Source: an uncultured Burkholderiales bacterium (GTDB taxonomy: Bacteria; Pseudomonadota; Gammaproteobacteria; Burkholderiales; Burkholderiaceae_C). From it: 64,000 nucleotides of DNA. Where the stretch lies: NCBI GenBank assembly GCA_903933115.1, contig CAIZIT010000070.1, positions 1 through 64,000 of the forward strand. The letters run 5' to 3'. The notes under the pieces were generated by a model, which was given only the letters and a program-made list of their open reading frames with translations, was not told where the DNA came from and ran no database searches. Position numbers and translations under genes: made by a program. Shown here one piece after another: positions 10,957-64,000 of this stretch; position 1 is the stretch's first letter; every line of letters begins with the position of its first letter.

Positions 10957-11310
10957 TCAAGCGTGAACGGCCAAAAGCTCGACATCAAATTGCAGGGTCG
11001 CATTGGGCGGAATCACGCCACCTGCACCCCTTGCGCCATAGCCCAACTCAGGGGGAATGATCAAGGTGCGCTTGCCACCAATTTTCATGCCCTGCACACC
11101 TTCATCCCAGCCTTTGATCACCATGCCAGCACCCAAATGAAATTCAAAGGGAGAGTTTCTGTCCACGCTGGAGTCAAACTTGGCGCCCTGGACTCCATTG
11201 TCGTAGAGCCAGCCTGTGTAATGAACGCTCACCTCTTGGTTGGCCTTGGCTTCTTCGCCCTCGCCAACGTGGGTATCGATGTACTGGAGTCCTGTGGAAG
11301 TTTTAATCAT
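10957..11310 (-). CDS. FKBP-type peptidyl-prolyl cis-trans isomerase
   Basis: A 117-residue single-domain FKBP without signal peptide, hence cytoplasmic. The full fold is present: VSVHYTGWLYDNG, AKFDSSVDRNSPFEFHLG, VIKGWDEGVQGMKIGG, RTLIIPPELGYGARG and IPPNATLQFDVELL. Active-site aromatics (Y, F, D, W and the terminal F) are retained. It would speed proline isomerisation during protein folding. It stands between two Bug receptor genes with gaps of about 96 and 460 bases, and probably has its own transcript; a catabolic link is not required. Confidence 0.95.
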   Translation of the reverse strand: MIKTSTGLQYIDTHVGEGEEAKANQEVSVHYTGWLYDNGVQGAKFDSSVDRNSPFEFHLGAGMVIKGWDEGVQGMKIGGKRTLIIPPELGYGARGAGGVIPPNATLQFDVELLAVHA

Positions 11311-11406
11311 GATGCTTCTTTATGAAAAAATAAAATTTGGGTGGATTATCCTGGAAAAATCACTGAGAGCGGTGCTTGTTGGTGATGACGCTGGCGTGTA
11401 AGTGCA

Positions 11407-12390
11407 TCAATCGGCCGTGATTTCCGCTTGCTTGATCAGCCTCTCATACTTCACCAGTTGCTTGTCCAAGGCCACGCCCAACTCATCCGGCGAGGAGCCC
11501 TTGGGGCTTAGGCCTTGAAGGATCAATTGCTCCCTCACGCTCTCGTCTCCAAGCGCCTTCAAGATCTCGCGGTGCAATTTTTGCGTGATGGCCTTGGGGG
11601 TGTTGTTGGGTGCCATCATGGCAAACCACGAGTTGAACTCAAAGCTTGGAAGGCCAGAGTCATGAATGGTGGGGACATCGGGAAATTGACTGAGTTTTTT
11701 AGGGGTGGAGACACCAATCAGTTTCAATTTGCCACTCTTGACCAAGGCGTTGATGGTGGCAATGCCTTGAAAGCACACATCCACCTCTTTACCGGCCAGA
11801 CCGACTGCGGCCTGAGTGGCGCCCTTGTAAGGGACATGGGTCAACTTGATGCCCGCTTGTGAGGCAAAAAGGGCCATGGCAATGTGCTGCGGGCTTCCAT
11901 TGCCGCCTGAGCCGTAGTTGAATTTTCCAGGTGAAGCTTTGGCCAGCGCGATGAAATCGGCTGCCGATTTGATGGGGGAATCTATCGGCACCACCAAACC
12001 CCACTCCACGGTGGCCACCAAAGACACGGGTTCGAAATCCTTTTGGATGTCCCAAGGCAGTTTGCTTTGCAAGTTGGGCAGCATGGTCATGATGCTGTCG
12101 TTGAAGCCGCCAAGCGTGTAACCATCGGCTGCCGACTTGGCGACACGGTCTGTGCCAATCACGCCAGAGGCGCCAGCTTGATTTTCAATCGCAATGCCCA
12201 CGCCCATGTTTTGGGCCATTTTTTGCAAAACAATTCTTGCCGCATTGTCCACTGCGCTTCCCGCTGCCAAAGGCACGATCACCTTGATGGGCTTCAAAGG
12301 ATAAGCGGTCTGAGCTTGTGCGAGGGACGGGAGCAGCCAATGAGCTGCACCACCCCAAGAGAGGGCTTGAATCAGTTGACGTCTTTGCAT
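11407..12390 (-). CDS. Bug/TctC-family periplasmic solute receptor
   Basis: A 327-residue receptor starting at 12390 (MQRRQLIQAL). The open frame extends 41 codons upstream but those residues overlap the Ldh2 gene and do not resemble a leader. The leader has paired arginines followed by LIQAL and ends LAQAQ, so Tat export is possible. Signatures are VIVPLAAGSAVDNAARIVL (Gly-Ser in place of the usual Gly-Gly), KSAADGYTL and HVPYKGATQAAVGLAG. It follows the Ldh2-type dehydrogenase gene by 34 bases and is probably co-transcribed with it. Confidence 0.92.
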   Translation of the reverse strand: MQRRQLIQALSWGGAAHWLLPSLAQAQTAYPLKPIKVIVPLAAGSAVDNAARIVLQKMAQNMGVGIAIENQAGASGVIGTDRVAKSAADGYTLGGFNDSIMTMLPNLQSKLPWDIQKDFEPVSLVATVEWGLVVPIDSPIKSAADFIALAKASPGKFNYGSGGNGSPQHIAMALFASQAGIKLTHVPYKGATQAAVGLAGKEVDVCFQGIATINALVKSGKLKLIGVSTPKKLSQFPDVPTIHDSGLPSFEFNSWFAMMAPNNTPKAITQKLHREILKALGDESVREQLILQGLSPKGSSPDELGVALDKQLVKYERLIKQAEITAD

Positions 12391-29089: not shown

Positions 29090-29431
29090 ATGTCCGATTC
29101 CTTGGCGCAACAAAACAACATCGTGATTGGTGAGGGAGTCACCTTTGCGGGCACCATCACCGCACCCGGAAAAGCCATGATCAATGGGGATGTCACCGGC
29201 AATTTATCGGTGAGTGATTTGCACATTGGCAAAGCGGGCCAGGTCTCGGGCGTCATTCGCGCCAAGGAGATCAATGTGCACGGCAAATTGAGCAAAGACA
29301 TTGTCTGTCAGCAGCATGTGATGATTCACTCCACGGGTCTGGTCTCAGGCACGTTGGAGTATGAGGAGATGGAGATTTTGCGTGGAGGCCAATTTCACGG
29401 GGTGATGAAGCAAAAGAGCGGCGGTGCCTAG
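29090..29431 (+). CDS. Bactofilin family cytoskeletal protein
   Basis: A 113-residue bactofilin. The repeating beta-helix pattern is visible: IVIGEGVTFAGTITAPG, AMINGDVTGNLSVSDLHIG, GQVSGVIRAKEINVHGKL, VMIHSTGLVSGTLEYEEM and LRGGQFHGVM. Such proteins self-assemble into filaments at the inner face of the membrane and organise cell-wall enzymes or chromosome partitioning proteins. No peptidase (LmdC-type) gene is adjacent. Confidence 0.93.
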   Translation: MSDSLAQQNNIVIGEGVTFAGTITAPGKAMINGDVTGNLSVSDLHIGKAGQVSGVIRAKEINVHGKLSKDIVCQQHVMIHSTGLVSGTLEYEEMEILRGGQFHGVMKQKSGGA

Positions 29432-43921: not shown

Positions 43922-44971
43922 ATGCGTTCAGAGGAAAAAAGAAAGAGGAAGGAAGCCGTGATGAGAGGCTTTGTCACGGTGCTTCATCGTCTGCGTCCAT
44001 GCATGCAGGCGCTCCTTGCAGTCCTGAGCCTGGGGGCGGCATTGAGCTTTGCACAAACGACCCCCCCTCCCTCTTACCCCTCGAAGCCCGTCAAAATCAT
44101 CGTGGGCTATGGTCCGGGAGGCACGGGTGACATCACGGTGCGACTGGTTGCTCAAAAGTTGAGCGAAATTCTAGGCCAACCCTTTGTGATCGAGAATCAC
44201 CCCAGTGCTGGTGGCATCGTGGCTTCGCAAATGGTTCAGCAATCCACCCCAGACGGCTACACCTTGAACTTCATTGCTGCTGGCAACTTTGCCATGACGC
44301 CCTCCCTCTTCAAATCCTTGCCCTTTGATCCGGTGAAGGATTTTGAGATGATTTCCATGTTCGGTACATTTGGATTTGCTTTGGCCGTGGATGGGTCATC
44401 CAACTACAAATCGGTCAAAGACTTGCTTGACGATGCAAAAGCCCATTCGGGTCGTGTCTTTCTCGGAACGATTTCTCCTGGCAGCGCACAGTTCTTGGCC
44501 GCTGAGTTCTTCAAGTCCATGACCAAAGGCGATTTGACACTGGTCACTTACAAGACCTCCGCTGACGTCATGAGGGCTTTGAAAGCCTCAGATGTGAATG
44601 CAACTTTTGAGACTTTGGCACCAGTTTTGCCCTTGGTCAAAACTGGCGGGATCCGGGTCTTGGGTGTGACCGATGAGCAGCGTTTTGCGGGCCTGCCTGA
44701 TGTGCCCACCTTGGCGCAAGCCGGTGTAGGCCCTTACGTGGTCACGGGATGGAATGGTTTGGCGGCGCCTAAGAAAACACCCAAAGAGGTGATTCTTAAA
44801 TTGAATGGCGCCATCAACACAGCGGTTGCGCAGGCCGATATTCGCCAAAAATTCTTGGACTTGGGCGTGACGGCCAAGGGCAACTCGCCAGAGCAGATGC
44901 TGGCTCTTTTGCAGCGAGACATCCAGTGGTGGCGCGAGGTGATTGGGCAGTCTCGGATCGAAAAACAGTGA
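43922..44971 (+). CDS. Bug/TctC-family periplasmic solute receptor
   Basis: A 349-residue receptor. ATG 43922 follows AGAGGAGA; an internal ATG at 43961 also has an AAGGAAG site and would give a shorter leader. The leader ends SFAQTT. The binding signature is divergent: IIVGYGPGGTGDITVRLVA and QSTPDGYTLNFI are normal but VTYKTSADVMRA replaces HVPYKG-A. The D-2-hydroxyacid dehydrogenase gene begins 22 bases later. Confidence 0.92.
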   Translation: MRSEEKRKRKEAVMRGFVTVLHRLRPCMQALLAVLSLGAALSFAQTTPPPSYPSKPVKIIVGYGPGGTGDITVRLVAQKLSEILGQPFVIENHPSAGGIVASQMVQQSTPDGYTLNFIAAGNFAMTPSLFKSLPFDPVKDFEMISMFGTFGFALAVDGSSNYKSVKDLLDDAKAHSGRVFLGTISPGSAQFLAAEFFKSMTKGDLTLVTYKTSADVMRALKASDVNATFETLAPVLPLVKTGGIRVLGVTDEQRFAGLPDVPTLAQAGVGPYVVTGWNGLAAPKKTPKEVILKLNGAINTAVAQADIRQKFLDLGVTAKGNSPEQMLALLQRDIQWWREVIGQSRIEKQ

Positions 44972-57576: not shown

Positions 57577-58233
57577 ATGTTTAAAAATAGAAAATTAATT
57601 CGATTGATGATTGCTGTGGCCATCACTGTGGTGATGGGCAGCGTGTATCTATTGAGTTTGCAATGGGTCGATGACGCCTCAACGGCTCAGGAGGAAGAGG
57701 TGGTGCAAGACATGAATGCAGCCGAGGAAGGCGCTCCAAAAGAGGAGGCCGAGTCGAAGGAAGGCGTTCCTCAGCATGCTGAATCCAACAGCGATGGGGT
57801 GGCCCATGGCGCAGCGCATGACAAAGGCGCGCAGCATGGAGAGGCGCACGAAGAAAAAGCGCATCCCAAGAAGGAGTCCGCTGAGCATGGGCAAAGCGCG
57901 GAGCACGGCGAGCACGCTCAAGCAGACGCTCAAAAGCCATCTCACGCAGAGTCTTCAGATCAAGAGGGTGGTGTAGACTTGTCTAAAAAATACAGACCCA
58001 GAATCATTGGCCGCTGTAAGGTGCTCTATGAGCGATTCAACAAAATGGAGCTTCAAGCCAATCAGTTCCATGCCTTTGCGTACAGCTTTGATGGCAAGAG
58101 CGGATATTGTGCAGATTCTGGACCACAAACTTCTGCGAAGTTGGCCAAAGAAATTGCGTTGTCCGACTGTGAAAAAAACAAGGGTTCTGCGGAGAGTTAT
58201 GCCCCTTGTTTTATTTACTCAAGTGATAAGTAA
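57577..58233 (+). CDS. Membrane-anchored protein with Glu/His/Ala-rich stalk and Cys-containing C-terminal domain
   Basis: A 218-residue protein. A membrane anchor spans about residues 8-30. Residues 34-135 are low-complexity, rich in Glu, Ala, His and Lys (repeats such as AEHGQSAEHGEHAQ), a likely extended stalk outside the membrane that could bind metals. The C-terminal 80 residues look folded and have four Cys (C147, C178, C198, C211), able to form two disulfides, with HAFAYSFDGKSGYC in the middle. I do not recognise the family. It is 14 bases upstream of the zinc-ribbon coiled-coil gene, so the three genes to 60369 are probably one operon. Confidence 0.75.
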   Translation: MFKNRKLIRLMIAVAITVVMGSVYLLSLQWVDDASTAQEEEVVQDMNAAEEGAPKEEAESKEGVPQHAESNSDGVAHGAAHDKGAQHGEAHEEKAHPKKESAEHGQSAEHGEHAQADAQKPSHAESSDQEGGVDLSKKYRPRIIGRCKVLYERFNKMELQANQFHAFAYSFDGKSGYCADSGPQTSAKLAKEIALSDCEKNKGSAESYAPCFIYSSDK

Positions 58234-58247
58234 GAGGAGCTGACAGC

Positions 58248-59648
58248 ATGAACTGTGATAAATGTGGAAAGCCCAACTCCCCTCAGGCGAAGTTTTGTGG
58301 CAAATGTGGATTTGCCTTCAAGTCCTTGGTCTCAGAGAGTGCTGTTGTGGAGAGCAGCTCTAGCTTGCAAGGCATGGCAGCGCAAACCGCAGCGGCTGAG
58401 GCCTCCCGACGTGAGCCTCAGCAAGATGAGCGAGATAGCCCAGATGCATTGGCCTCGAGTGCTTTGACGACTCGGCCCCTAGAGCGTGAAGAGAGCCCTT
58501 CAGGTCATGAGGAAGTGACAAGCACTGAACCCCAAGCACCCATCAGCAATGAAATGACCTCAGCTCCAGTGAGCAGCTCAGCGGGCGACTTGAAAGCCTT
58601 GATCAATACGCAATTCAACAACAACTACTCCAATCAAGCAGCGATTAAAAAATACCTCGATGCGCACACCGAGCAACTGAAGGCGATCACCTTTCAGTTG
58701 GAGAGCATCAAAAATTTTCAAGCAACCATCAATTACGAATTGATCATCAATGAGATCAATGACAAGTACAAGGCGATCGTTCAAAGAATTGAGGAAAGGG
58801 ATGCTGGCGTTTTGAGCGATCCGACCCAAAGTTTGGGTCATTTGCTGGATGATGTCGATGAAAAAACGCACTTCCTGTTTGAGAAAATCAATGCCTTGTT
58901 GATTTCTCACAATCATCAATTGATGAACAACTTTGAATCTATTTTGCAAAATGTGCATCACCAAAACGACAGCACTTTTGCACTGTTAGAAAATCAGCTG
59001 ACCACAAAAAATGCCGATTTACAGGCATCCATTGCCCAGGCTTTGCAAAACTTTGAGACCAAATCGATAGAGGAAAATATCAATTTGGAGGCCAAGTTGA
59101 TGGACTCTATTCATGAGATGAAAGTGCAGTCCAAGGATGCCGATCAAGAGCTCTTGGAGCGCTTGGGAGCGATTGAGGAGTTGATCTCAGGTGTGAGCAG
59201 CTCAGCCCTGTCAACCTCACCTGAGGCACAAGCAGGCTCGGTCGATGTGATCTCTAAGCAAATGAAATCTCTGGCCCTTAACAGTCACGAAAAACTCTCC
59301 AATTTGATCTCGAGCAGTCACCAGACTTTGAGCATTGAGATTGCCAGCGATCTCAATGAAATGATGGACGAGCGCATGAAGGGGTTGAAGTTGGATTTGG
59401 AGAAGTCTCTTGCAGACATCAAGAAGGACAAACATTTGACCAAAGAGATGTTCAAATCGGTCGTCTCCCCCAGTGAGTTCAATCCTGAGGGCTCCGATGG
59501 TTGGATCACGTTTTTAACGGGTTTGTTGAGCGGTTGTGCTGTGGTCTTGGCAAGCCTTGCCCTCTACAACTTCGTTGCCCATTCTTCAGATACGGTTGCG
59601 GAAAAGTCCTCCAAGGCGGCTGTTTCAAAATCGCACAAGCACGAATAA
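58248..59648 (+). CDS. Zinc-ribbon, coiled-coil, C-tail-anchored membrane protein
   Basis: A 466-residue protein with AGAGGAG upstream. A four-Cys zinc ribbon uses C3, C6, C17 and C20 (NCDKCGKP, FCGKCGFAF). After a Ser/Glu-rich linker (about 28-110), residues 115-410 are helical with heptad character (for example ATINYELIINEINDKYKAIV). A single membrane helix lies at about 420-444, with a short basic tail. The bulk should be cytoplasmic, tethered to the membrane at its C-terminus. No known family is recognised beyond the ribbon. It resembles a scaffold or tether rather than an enzyme. Confidence 0.78.
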   Translation: MNCDKCGKPNSPQAKFCGKCGFAFKSLVSESAVVESSSSLQGMAAQTAAAEASRREPQQDERDSPDALASSALTTRPLEREESPSGHEEVTSTEPQAPISNEMTSAPVSSSAGDLKALINTQFNNNYSNQAAIKKYLDAHTEQLKAITFQLESIKNFQATINYELIINEINDKYKAIVQRIEERDAGVLSDPTQSLGHLLDDVDEKTHFLFEKINALLISHNHQLMNNFESILQNVHHQNDSTFALLENQLTTKNADLQASIAQALQNFETKSIEENINLEAKLMDSIHEMKVQSKDADQELLERLGAIEELISGVSSSALSTSPEAQAGSVDVISKQMKSLALNSHEKLSNLISSSHQTLSIEIASDLNEMMDERMKGLKLDLEKSLADIKKDKHLTKEMFKSVVSPSEFNPEGSDGWITFLTGLLSGCAVVLASLALYNFVAHSSDTVAEKSSKAAVSKSHKHE

Positions 59649-59664
59649 TAGAGCTTGAACCAAG

Positions 59665-60369
59665 ATGTCCACGATGTCCATGAAGCCTTGCTTTTCTTGT
59701 GGTTTTGAGAACCCCGCGGAACACTTGTTTTGCGAGAATTGTGGCGTGAGCTTGTCCGATTCGATCATTGCACCGGTCTACATCAATACCCTCAAACACG
59801 ACAGCCAGTTGATCAGTTTGAATGTTTTTTATCGCCGGGTTTGGTATTGGTTTTTGACCCTGGTTGCAGCTTCTTTGGCTTACTGGTTCTTTCCCGATAT
59901 CCACATCACCTATTGGACTGCAGGCGTGGGTTTGTTCATTTCATTTTTGGTGCCTTATCGATACGACAGCATCATTCGCCAGCCCATTCCGACAGAGATT
60001 TTGTCCAAAAACATCATCGCTTATGGCCCCTCCTACAAAAGGGGTTGTTTCTTCTTTGCGTCGGGCTTGATGTACTTTTTGGACGATGGTTTTTTCTACA
60101 AGTCCTACTCGATCAAGGGGGACACCTATTTCCTTTTCATCGAAAAGTCGAGCATCGATTTCATCTCTTCCCACGAGCGCTTGCCCATTGGACGATCTTC
60201 CTCCAAGATCTCCATTCACACCAAAAGTGGTGCGGTGCATCAATTCAATGTTTATAAGCGCGAGTTGTGGCTTTTGACGTTTTATCAGTTTGGCTTGAGG
60301 ATTGAGGCCTCCGGTATGAGCTTTAAAATGCCAGAGGTGTCTGCTCCCGTGGAGGACGAGGTTCAATGA
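59665..60369 (+). CDS. Zinc-ribbon membrane protein with PH-like C-terminal domain
   Basis: A 234-residue protein. A zinc ribbon uses C9, C12, C23 and C26 (CFSCGFENPAEHLFCENCG). Two membrane helices lie at about 59-77 and 82-98. The remainder (about 110-220) has alternating strand-like segments (KGDTYFLFIEKSSIDFI, SSKISIHTKSGAVHQFNVY) and could be a PH-like domain, though this is only a visual impression. It begins 16 bases after the coiled-coil gene. The ribbon resembles that gene's ribbon, suggesting a shared binding partner. Confidence 0.75.
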   Translation: MSTMSMKPCFSCGFENPAEHLFCENCGVSLSDSIIAPVYINTLKHDSQLISLNVFYRRVWYWFLTLVAASLAYWFFPDIHITYWTAGVGLFISFLVPYRYDSIIRQPIPTEILSKNIIAYGPSYKRGCFFFASGLMYFLDDGFFYKSYSIKGDTYFLFIEKSSIDFISSHERLPIGRSSSKISIHTKSGAVHQFNVYKRELWLLTFYQFGLRIEASGMSFKMPEVSAPVEDEVQ

Positions 60370-61165: not shown

Positions 61166-64000
61166 ATGGCTGAGACCGAGCCTCAGGCGGCTCCCTCTTG
61201 GCTCCAGATGACTTCACTCATGACTCAGCTCAGAACTGATCGATTTTCGCGATTCATTGCTTTGTTTTCACAAATGCTCAGCGCTCAACCGCGTGAGGCC
61301 CTCTTGTTGGCTCAAGGCAAAGAGCTGTTGGCTGAATTGGTCCGATTCGACGATTGGCTTGACCCTGTTTTTACACGTCCCGATCCCATCCATTACCAGC
61401 AGTATCTCTTGCATTTGGATGCGAGTGAGCGCTTCAGTGTGGTGAGTTTTGTCTGGGGGCCAGGGCAATCAACCCCCATTCATGATCACACCACATGGGG
61501 TTTGGTGGGTATGCTGCGAGGCTCAGAGATGTGCCAACCTTACGCCAAGATGTCCGATGGACGGTGGGCTGCAGCGGGTTTGCAATTGGATTTGCGACCT
61601 GGTGATGTGGAAGTGATCAACCCCAGGTTGGGCGATGTGCATCGGGTTTGGAATGCTCGAGCTGAGGAGGTCTCCATCAGCATTCATGTTTACGGTGGAA
61701 ACATTGGCTCCACGCAAAGAAGTGTTTATACGCCTGAAGGGGTCAGAAAAGCATTTGTCTCAGGCTACAGCCCCGTTCCCAGAGGTTTTGAGCGAGGTAT
61801 TTCTGTTTCCAAATCGCGAGTGATGGAGGAGGGGGCGGACCTCAGCAACGCGATCCCAAGCGCTGGTTCGTCAAGAACGGCCGCCTTGCCCGATCCTTTA
61901 GGGCGTGTGAGTGAGCAGACTCCAGAAACGCCAGCACCTGTCTTGGTGAGCCCACCCACGGTGATCAAGTCTTGGATGTCTAAATCTGCCGCAGAGCAAA
62001 TCACGCAACTCACACCTGTCAGAAATGCGCAAAGCCAGTTCAAGCCTAGCCCGGCCACTTTGACCAGTTCCACCACTTCTACCACTTTGCCCATCAATAC
62101 ACCGCTCAACAGCACCCACCGTGAAGAGGTGGGTGCTAAGAGGCCTCTCGATCTTGCGCCGCCACCGATAGCTGCTACAGCGATGGGTTCTGCAGCGATG
62201 GGGGTGTCTACTGTGGCCTCTCGAGCAGCTGCACCAGTGGTGATTTTGCCTTCTGAGGCCCAGCGCACTGCAGCTGCCCCTTCGGTGCCGATGACTTCCA
62301 CTGCGGACACTGCACCAAGCGCAGTTCCAAGCGCAGTTCCAAGCTCAGTTCCAAGCTCAGTTCCAAGCTCAGTTCCAGGGGCCGCTGCAAACTTGGTCTC
62401 TGTTCACAACAGACCTTCTTCTCAAGTCGAGGCCACTCCACCTCAAGGGGCCAAAGCTTCTGAGCCCGATGACCCGCGCTACATTTCGAGCGAATGGGTC
62501 AAAGCCAGACTCATGAGTCGCCAAGAGTTGGTTTTGGTGGATGCGAGAGAGGAGGATCCCTTTGCCAAGGCGCACCCGCTGTTTGCCTCTAATTTTCCTT
62601 TGTCCAGTATTGAAGTGGATGCGTATCGACGCATTCCTCGGCTGAGCACGCCCATTGTGGTTTACGACAATCAAGAGGGCTTGGCAGAGCAGGTGGTGGA
62701 GATTTTGAAGTCAATGGGCTATGAGTTTGTTCGGCAATTGAGGGGCGGACTCCAAGGCTGGATTCAATCGGGGGGAGAAATTTTTCAAGATGTGAACGTG
62801 CCGAGCAAATCCTTTGGCGAGTTGGTTCAGGTGAAAAAGCAAACTCCCAAAGTCAGCGCCCAACTCTTAAAGGCTTGGATTGAGCAAAATGCCGATGTGG
62901 TCATTCTTGATGCAAGACGATTTGATGAGTACCAGACCATGGCCATTCCTCGTGGAGTGAGTGTTCCGGGGGGGGAGTTGGTGCTGCGTGCGCGCACATT
63001 GGCACCCAAAGTCACAACCCGCATTGTGGTCAATTGTGCAGGACGCACCAGGAGCATCATTGGTGCGCAATCCTTGGTCAATGCAGGCATTCCCAATCCG
63101 GTCTGCGCCCTAGAAAACGGAACCATCGGCTGGGTGTTGGCAGGCCAAGCCTTGGTCACTGGCAGCGCGGAGCAGTTCCAGGCTGTGAGTGCAGAGGATT
63201 TGGCCAAGTCCAAACTCAACGCATTGTCCGTGGCCATTCGCTCAGGGGTCAAAAGGATTGATCGAGAAGAGCTGGTGCTGATGCAGCAAGAGTCTTTGAG
63301 AACCACTTATTTGTTCGATGTCAGAACGCCAGAAGAGTTCGCACAAGGTCATTTGCCCAAAGCCATCCACGCACCTGGTGGGCAGCTGGTTCAAGAGACG
63401 GATCATTTTGCACCTGTTCGTGGTGCGCGTGTCGTGCTCTATGACACGGATGGCGTCAGGGCCCACATGACGGCTTCGTGGTTGGCTCAAATGGGTTGGG
63501 AAGCCTTTGTCTTGAAGGAGGTGAAGGTGACGGATTTGCTCAGCAAAAGTGTGGAGTTGATGCTCCCCCCCGTTGCTCAAACGGCACCCACGGTCAAGGC
63601 CTCGGTGTTGAAGGAGTGGCTGAGCAATCGGTCCAATTTGACTTTGGTGATCGATGTGGGCACCAGTCAACAGTACGTCAAGGCCCATATTCCAGGTGCT
63701 TGGTGGATTTTGCGTTCACAAATGGCTCAAGATTTCCAACGTGTTCATCGAGCAAATCGATACGTCATCACTTCCTCCAATGGACATGCGGCACAATATG
63801 CCGCCCGTGCCTTGAGGGCTTGCGTCAAAAGCACTGTAGAGGTTTTGGTCTTGGAGGGGGGCACAAAGGCTTGGACAGATGCCGGCTACTCCTGTCAGCA
63901 AGGGGAGTCTTATTTGGCAAGCCCAAGAATTGACCGCTATCAAAGGCCCTATGAGGGCACCCACAACAGTGCAGCTGCCATGCAAGCCTATTTAGACTGG
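61166..64000 (+). CDS. Cysteine-dioxygenase/four-rhodanese fusion protein (3' end outside window)
   Basis: An uninterrupted frame of 945 codons that runs off the window. Residues about 18-200 are a cysteine dioxygenase-type cupin: iron ligands H106 and H108 (STPIHDHTTWGLVGML) and H159 (GDVHRVWN). Residues about 205-435 are a Ser/Thr/Pro/Ala-rich linker with a 12-bp repeat. Four rhodanese domains follow (about 439-550, 560-665, 698-790, 805-925). The catalytic Cys is present only in the second (C624 in VNCAGRTRS); the others have D501, D760 and S870 at the site. The product would oxidise cysteine or a related thiol and handle sulfane sulfur. In other Burkholderiales the two parts are, to my knowledge, neighbouring separate genes. 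Starts at 61208 or 61220 are alternatives; no strong ribosome binding site is seen. Confidence 0.88.
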   Translation, partial: MAETEPQAAPSWLQMTSLMTQLRTDRFSRFIALFSQMLSAQPREALLLAQGKELLAELVRFDDWLDPVFTRPDPIHYQQYLLHLDASERFSVVSFVWGPGQSTPIHDHTTWGLVGMLRGSEMCQPYAKMSDGRWAAAGLQLDLRPGDVEVINPRLGDVHRVWNARAEEVSISIHVYGGNIGSTQRSVYTPEGVRKAFVSGYSPVPRGFERGISVSKSRVMEEGADLSNAIPSAGSSRTAALPDPLGRVSEQTPETPAPVLVSPPTVIKSWMSKSAAEQITQLTPVRNAQSQFKPSPATLTSSTTSTTLPINTPLNSTHREEVGAKRPLDLAPPPIAATAMGSAAMGVSTVASRAAAPVVILPSEAQRTAAAPSVPMTSTADTAPSAVPSAVPSSVPSSVPSSVPGAAANLVSVHNRPSSQVEATPPQGAKASEPDDPRYISSEWVKARLMSRQELVLVDAREEDPFAKAHPLFASNFPLSSIEVDAYRRIPRLSTPIVVYDNQEGLAEQVVEILKSMGYEFVRQLRGGLQGWIQSGGEIFQDVNVPSKSFGELVQVKKQTPKVSAQLLKAWIEQNADVVILDARRFDEYQTMAIPRGVSVPGGELVLRARTLAPKVTTRIVVNCAGRTRSIIGAQSLVNAGIPNPVCALENGTIGWVLAGQALVTGSAEQFQAVSAEDLAKSKLNALSVAIRSGVKRIDREELVLMQQESLRTTYLFDVRTPEEFAQGHLPKAIHAPGGQLVQETDHFAPVRGARVVLYDTDGVRAHMTASWLAQMGWEAFVLKEVKVTDLLSKSVELMLPPVAQTAPTVKASVLKEWLSNRSNLTLVIDVGTSQQYVKAHIPGAWWILRSQMAQDFQRVHRANRYVITSSNGHAAQYAARALRACVKSTVEVLVLEGGTKAWTDAGYSCQQGESYLASPRIDRYQRPYEGTHNSAAAMQAYLDW
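62315..62374 (+). repeat. Five 12-bp tandem repeats in the linker of the fusion gene
   Basis: Five consecutive copies of CCAAGCGCAGTT, three of them with TCA for GCA, encode Pro-Ser-Ala/Ser-Val repeats at about residues 384-403. The unit keeps the frame, so copy number could vary between strains and alter the linker length. Confidence 0.9.

Follow-up and report, generated by a model that had tools for sequence, protein, structure and literature searches.

Close to one end of a 64,000-nucleotide stretch of DNA from an uncultured Burkholderiales bacterium (henceforth the window), three short genes follow each other so tightly that they raise the question of whether they encode a single functional system and, if so, of what kind. 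All three are on the + strand: gene 1 (57577..58233) codes for the 218 aa protein p1, gene 2 (58248..59648) for the 466 aa p2 and gene 3 (59665..60369) for the 234 aa p3. The gaps between them measure 14 and 16 bases, so that the positions and spacing given in the original prediction are exact. By eye, the 14 bases between genes 1 and 2 (58234..58247, + strand) include GAGGAG, the likely ribosome site of gene 2, and in some of the related loci the two genes may overlap, the earliest potential start codon of gene 2 sharing bases with the gene 1 stop. A search for a promoter-like site upstream of gene 1 found none. When the window genome was searched for paralogues of p3, gene 3 was the single match.

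All three are under purifying selection and are true genes, not chance open frames. Relative to the public contigs L003–L006 (counted below as genomes G659, G228, G236 and G217), the window proteins are 87–89% (p3), 70–73% (p2) and 50–55% (p1) identical. The corresponding dN values are 0.085–0.095 for gene 3, 0.17–0.20 for gene 2 and 0.06–0.08 for the cysteine-bearing domain of gene 1, with dS at 0.9 or more, or saturated. The linker of gene 1 is weakly constrained and drifting (pN 0.46–0.52, pS 0.73–0.85). Scans of the three window proteins against Pfam and NCBIfam returned no model at its cut-off, in agreement with the earlier view that none belongs to a nameable family.

We then traced the trio through 84 genomes of the genus. 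At E up to 0.001, the p3 profile matched 44 of these. In 42 the match corresponds to a real p3 (that in G647 covers positions 1–71 only), and in the other two (G216 and G240) it is weak and stray; the p1 profile matched 41. Genes 1 and 3 are both present in 40 genomes and both missing from 41, with p1 alone in one and p3 alone in two (Fisher p 4e-20, with genomes treated as independent although they are related by ancestry). In each of the three single-gene genomes a contig ends close by, and the missing partner would fall on or beyond that end: the contig ends within p2 in G254 (L051), p3 starts 428 bases into the contig in G655 and leaves no room for p1, and in G212 about 1 kb separates p1, on the minus strand, from the contig start.

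Searches beyond the genus recovered parts of these proteins. A single-sequence p3 search of 200 family genomes gave two matches, the second a bare ribbon, and the p1 profile gave two in 299 family genomes, the second restricted to positions 8–112 (E 6e-4); neither these nor the 399 order genomes searched hold a clear gene 1 outside the genus. With the p3 profile we obtained 30 matches in 399 order genomes and 24 in 319 phylum genomes; besides the window, none among the matches listed extends past position 91 and position 86, respectively, of 214. The extra-genus matches listed consist of the ribbon and the first helices, with no full-length gene 3, and the 15–16 kb stretches read around two p3-profile matches (G475 and G357) hold no p1- or p2-like neighbour. 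The family, order and phylum samples partly overlap, and three genus members (G080, G184 and G210) are in the family sample without a match. A mobile origin was discarded, p3 being unmatched in 72,556 plasmid records and the p3 profile finding no relative in viral contigs. In the trio-less genome G216, a fragment corresponding to the PH-like half of p3 (positions 105–210, E 1.5e-6, one stop) lies at 44875–45192 of contig C13 (L154); no kept open frame of at least 70 aa in that stretch matches p3, and the fragment may be either a remnant or chance.

That the unit survives changes of neighbourhood is the best argument for a function common to the three genes. We compared the loci of 36 of the 42 p3-bearing genomes, all chosen for having p3 and themselves part of the material from which the profiles were built. 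The three genes share one strand and one order in 33 of the 36, and in the other three the contig ends inside gene 2. This order is kept although p3 identity to the window drops to 21–30% and the flanking genes change. Gene clustering, in which only some neighbours were identified by family search, revealed different neighbourhoods in different groups of loci, and no fourth gene accompanies the trio across the groups. On the question of whether the triplet is conserved as a unit across Burkholderiales, the unit is supported and the breadth is not: in the sampled genomes the trio is a solid conserved unit restricted to one genus, where it occurs in about half of the genomes.

The changing surroundings are illustrated by three groups of loci. 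In the window itself, gene 3 is followed at 61220–64000 by a gene that runs off the end, shares about 71% identity with an open frame of 882 aa in L003, and encodes what we take to be a cysteine-dioxygenase/rhodanese-like fusion. This sulfur gene, whose co-occurrence with the trio had been put forward as a check, proved to be a neighbour in the window clade only: it adjoins the trio in seven of the nine loci of that clade (the contigs of the other two end soon after gene 3) and is absent from the fetched stretches of the other 24 loci compared. On the opposite side, the trio in this clade is flanked by a presumably aldolase-like gene. In the second group, a bactofilin gene lies on one side and, by family search, an oxidoreductase and a PhyH gene, also kept, on the other. 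In the third, gene 1 is immediately preceded by a gene of 130 residues (L060 7265–7654, L155 104–493, L156 4911–5300), and the L060 and L155 copies matched no family over its cut-off. A small secreted-looking cysteine protein (L004 7096–7560, L006 7100–7564, L044 18567–18992 and L050) occupies the space separating the trio from the sulfur gene in two window-clade loci and is placed beside a bactofilin in two others; its L004 copy has no Pfam match.

The domain layout of the three proteins agrees with the original reading in p1 (helix and four-cysteine domain) and p2 (ribbon and C-terminal anchor). p1 opens with a hydrophobic membrane helix (57589..57672, + strand, residues 5–32), preceded by a basic N-terminus that the positive-inside rule would place inside the cell. 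A charged linker of about 100 residues leads to a C-terminal domain of about 80 residues (57991..58230, + strand, residues 139–218), predicted as helix-strand-strand-helix-strand, with four cysteines (147, 178, 198 and 211) that are invariant across 21 aligned relatives. The histidines of the linker were considered as a metal-binding feature and dropped, as their content ranges from 0 to 9% in 26 rows and the linker is charged rather than conserved. Structure models of p1 and p3 were each built with five close sequences, and the cysteine domain of p1, with ten-residue means of 65 to 91 from residue 141, is better modelled than p3. The best Foldseek match of the p1 model has an E of 0.59. In a second structure comparison its top two rows are pyruvoyl decarboxylase (Z 5.8 and 5.1), a likeness that we judged to be a common arrangement. 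The profile of the domain (A6) compared with PDB sequences found fermitin alone, at E 0.25 and 0.5.

p2 begins with a zinc ribbon (58248..58319, + strand, residues 1–24; C3, C6, C17 and C20), continues into a heptad-rich rod and ends in a hydrophobic anchor (59493..59588, + strand, residues 416–447), which is its sole hydrophobic segment and includes the invariant G429 and N441. The short tail after the anchor would lie outside. The ribbon cysteines are invariant in 19 aligned rows, and the invariant positions of the protein sit in the ribbon and the anchor; its length varies from 338 to 611 aa in the alignment and reaches 707 in L155. The rod of the window protein, about 290 residues long, is low in proline (1.0%) and glycine (2.1%). 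A heptad test over its whole length gave no signal (p 0.94). Tested in 35-residue windows, 18 of the 19 members have a heptad mean above that of shuffled sequences (p<0.05), and 12 of 19 have a heptad maximum above it, for which the window protein stands at 0.058. A coiled coil is thus supported for p2, albeit not strongly. At L058 4155–5286 the reading frame of p2 terminates ahead of the anchor with p1 and p3 in place, reflecting a frameshift or a real truncation.

p3 likewise has an N-terminal zinc ribbon (59689..59745, + strand, residues 9–27; C9, C12, C23 and C26, all invariant in 21 aligned rows), followed by a membrane hairpin of two hydrophobic stretches within residues 59–97 (59839..59955, + strand) and a probable C-terminal PH-like domain of about residues 128–224 (60046..60336, + strand). 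The model of p3, with a mean pLDDT of 40, shows a predicted run of strands ending in a C-terminal helix. In structure comparison this low-confidence model matched Rtt106 at Z 7.0 over 68–74 residues and the bacterial protein 3dcx at Z 6.5 over 103 residues; Z values below 8 can arise by chance. Most of the top rows are what we take to be proteins with PH domains. By sequence alone, the p3 profile recovered SSRP1 over the PH-like stretch at E 0.03 (SSRP1 rows 0.03–0.19), in a search where the best rows were ribbons (E 0.004) and the CusA rows (0.12) came close to those of SSRP1. Window p3 matches no PH, GRAM or bPH family of Pfam at E up to 10, and the matches among the 21 p3 members are weak: one to GRAM (E 0.17) and one to an Rtt106-like domain (E 0.009). 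A PH-like fold for this domain is likely but unproven, and the earlier guess to that effect holds as far as the low-confidence model and the weak sequence match go.

The ribbons of p2 and p3 follow the same pattern, CxxC-x10-CxxC, which is invariant in all 21 p3 and 19 p2 rows, and a ribbon family is matched in 21/21 and 19/19 rows, respectively, at loose E-values. In the window, p2 scores 21.2 of the 25 bits needed for Zn_Ribbon_1 and p3 21.0 of the 27.3 needed for DZR, both below the Pfam cut-off. It had been suggested that this common ribbon hints at common partners; that argument loses most of its force because the ribbon portion of the profile picks up many proteins that are not related, in line with the generic nature of such ribbons.

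Taking these observations together, we propose that the operon-like trio makes one inner-membrane complex acting as a scaffold or tether, a reading to which we assign a probability of about 0.5. With its N-terminus inside, p1 would hold a disulphide-stabilised domain off the membrane on an unstructured tether of about 100 residues. p2 would contribute a cytoplasmic zinc ribbon and coiled-coil rod anchored at its C-terminus, and p3 a zinc ribbon, a membrane hairpin and a PH-like domain facing the cytoplasm. The membrane helices of the three proteins may pack together, and because of this packing p1 would connect something periplasmic to a p2/p3 platform inside. The original prediction had offered a membrane-linked scaffold or a stress sensor; we prefer the former, both being inferences.

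The sensor is the better-surviving alternative, though we consider it doubtful. The cysteine domain of p1 would sense a periplasmic ligand, the redox state or cell-wall stress, and p2 and p3 would relay the signal through their ribbon and PH-like contacts. A single-pass protein that carries an invariant-cysteine domain on a fast-evolving tether is consistent with such a role, as is the predicted cytoplasmic placement of most of p2 and p3. Against it, no dedicated output gene is visible, since none of the further neighbours is retained from one group of loci to the next.

More specific, and improbable in our estimate, is that the trio fastens a bactofilin filament to the inner membrane while giving it a contact in the periplasm, comparable to the way in which the peptidase LmdC is bound by the bactofilin BacA. 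The lead comes from the second group of loci, where a divergent bactofilin gene sits beside gene 1 at a distance of a few hundred bases; this is seen in 17 genomes (12 of 32 loci in the neighbour clustering). With about 12 neighbour slots among roughly 2,700 genes (our own estimate), such adjacency would be rare by chance, the neighbours having been examined post hoc. The window has its own candidate, a bactofilin at 29090..29431 (+ strand) that is the best match in its genome to the 10 trio-adjacent bactofilins compared; here it lies outside the trio operon, 28 kb away, and is a possible partner of the trio. The distance is 27–28 kb in two other genomes of the window clade (G659 and G217), and in four of another clade (G249, G651, G211 and G653) this bactofilin lies on the trio contig at about 15–25 kb. 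A precedent is known from Hyphomonas, where BacA is described as binding the bitopic membrane peptidase LmdC encoded beside it (PMC10945521).

Several observations weigh against this anchor. Immediate adjacency is found in one group only, where the oxidoreductase and PhyH genes are also kept, and the remaining trio genomes have the bactofilin on another contig or give no match at the threshold; in G204, for instance, it is elsewhere although the trio contig is 162 kb long. Trio-less genomes also have bactofilins of the same kind (counting paralogues, 72 of the 84 genus genomes give a match at E up to 1e-25), and the window genome has six. The link is therefore suggestive, unproven, and only a lead, because the neighbours were examined post hoc, adjacency is confined to one group and bactofilins occur without the trio. 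Its fuller version, a trans-envelope anchor of a dedicated bactofilin filament that p2 and p3 bind via their ribbons and PH-like domain while p1 reaches into the periplasm, is less probable still. If true, it would represent a peptidase-free bactofilin partner system that occurs in a single genus and is missing from half of the genomes sampled there, and would add partners other than cell-wall peptidases to those known for these filaments. In a bactofilin tree, which lacks a control gene and was not used as evidence, trio-less genomes have short branches and three trio groups have longer stems, with the trio-less G231 (88% complete) inside the window group. Elsewhere in the window genome (contig C50, L121 3947–7568), three bactofilin genes are interleaved with two genes that by eye resemble M23 (LytM) peptidases, and a fourth bactofilin follows at 11205–11561.

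Least probable of all is that these are three co-transcribed, functionally separate small membrane proteins kept by shared regulation alone, which would suit the generic nature of the ribbons but is at odds with co-occurrence and gene order retained at very low sequence identity. The combination of fast sequence drift with fixed order and fixed cysteines instead points to a genuine small machine that is unnamed in the family libraries, and the split between presence and absence within one genus offers a natural comparison for its role.

How does the scaffold or tether proposed here relate to known systems? Its modules are all of known kinds, and their arrangement and operon matched nothing in the searches run; among the papers listed in literature searches on bactofilins, DUF4189 and bacterial zinc-ribbon, pleckstrin-homology or coiled-coil membrane proteins, none mentions a trio of this kind in its title or abstract opening. 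Like the membrane proteins with Zn_Ribbon_1 or DZR domains, p2 and p3 have an N-terminal CxxC-x10-CxxC ribbon followed by membrane helices, but the window ribbons are under the curated cut-offs and the rest of each protein is without a Pfam family at cut-off. With the PH, GRAM and bacterial PH domains, p3 is predicted to share a run of strands and a C-terminal helix.

For the p1 domain the closest comparison is with DUF4189 (PF13827), represented by Rv1813c (PDB 7nhz), which is described as having two duplicated strand-strand-helix-strand lobes, two disulphides and, as a family feature, a C-terminal WACN motif with a disulphide (PMC10269737). By prediction, the p1 domain consists of a helix followed by elements in the order of a single lobe, and conserved cysteines are common to both. 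Detected likeness is weak: 7nhz came third in the second structure comparison (Z 4.2, 47 residues, rmsd 2.5), the two profiles matched with a probability of 6.6% (E 0.0055), and, with E limited to 1, DUF4189 was matched in 8 of 21 p1 members (best E 0.046). The A6 profile gave three matches at E up to 0.01 in 399 order genomes: the window's own, one in G449 (E 5e-6, no Pfam family) and a true DUF4189 protein in G623 (E 0.0032). The match at E 5e-6 to the p1 cysteine domain lies in the C-terminal part of a 257-aa protein (L166 967–1740) of another family of the order, with no Pfam family at cut-off. Membership of p1 in DUF4189 was rejected on three defining features: window p1 scores 13.2 bits (E 0.14) against a gathering cut-off of 25 bits, is predicted to have one lobe instead of two, and, as in 15 of 15 rows of the A6 alignment, is devoid of the WACN motif. 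It further differs in being membrane-anchored via a long linker. The domain thus resembles one DUF4189 lobe and may work like one, without being a family member.

Finally, compared with BacA–LmdC, the trio is without an M23 peptidase, its rod (p2) is predicted to be inside the cell whereas that of LmdC is outside, and its link to a bactofilin is not exclusive; what the two systems would have in common is a coiled-coil partner and, in one group of trio loci, genes for membrane proteins that lie beside a bactofilin gene.
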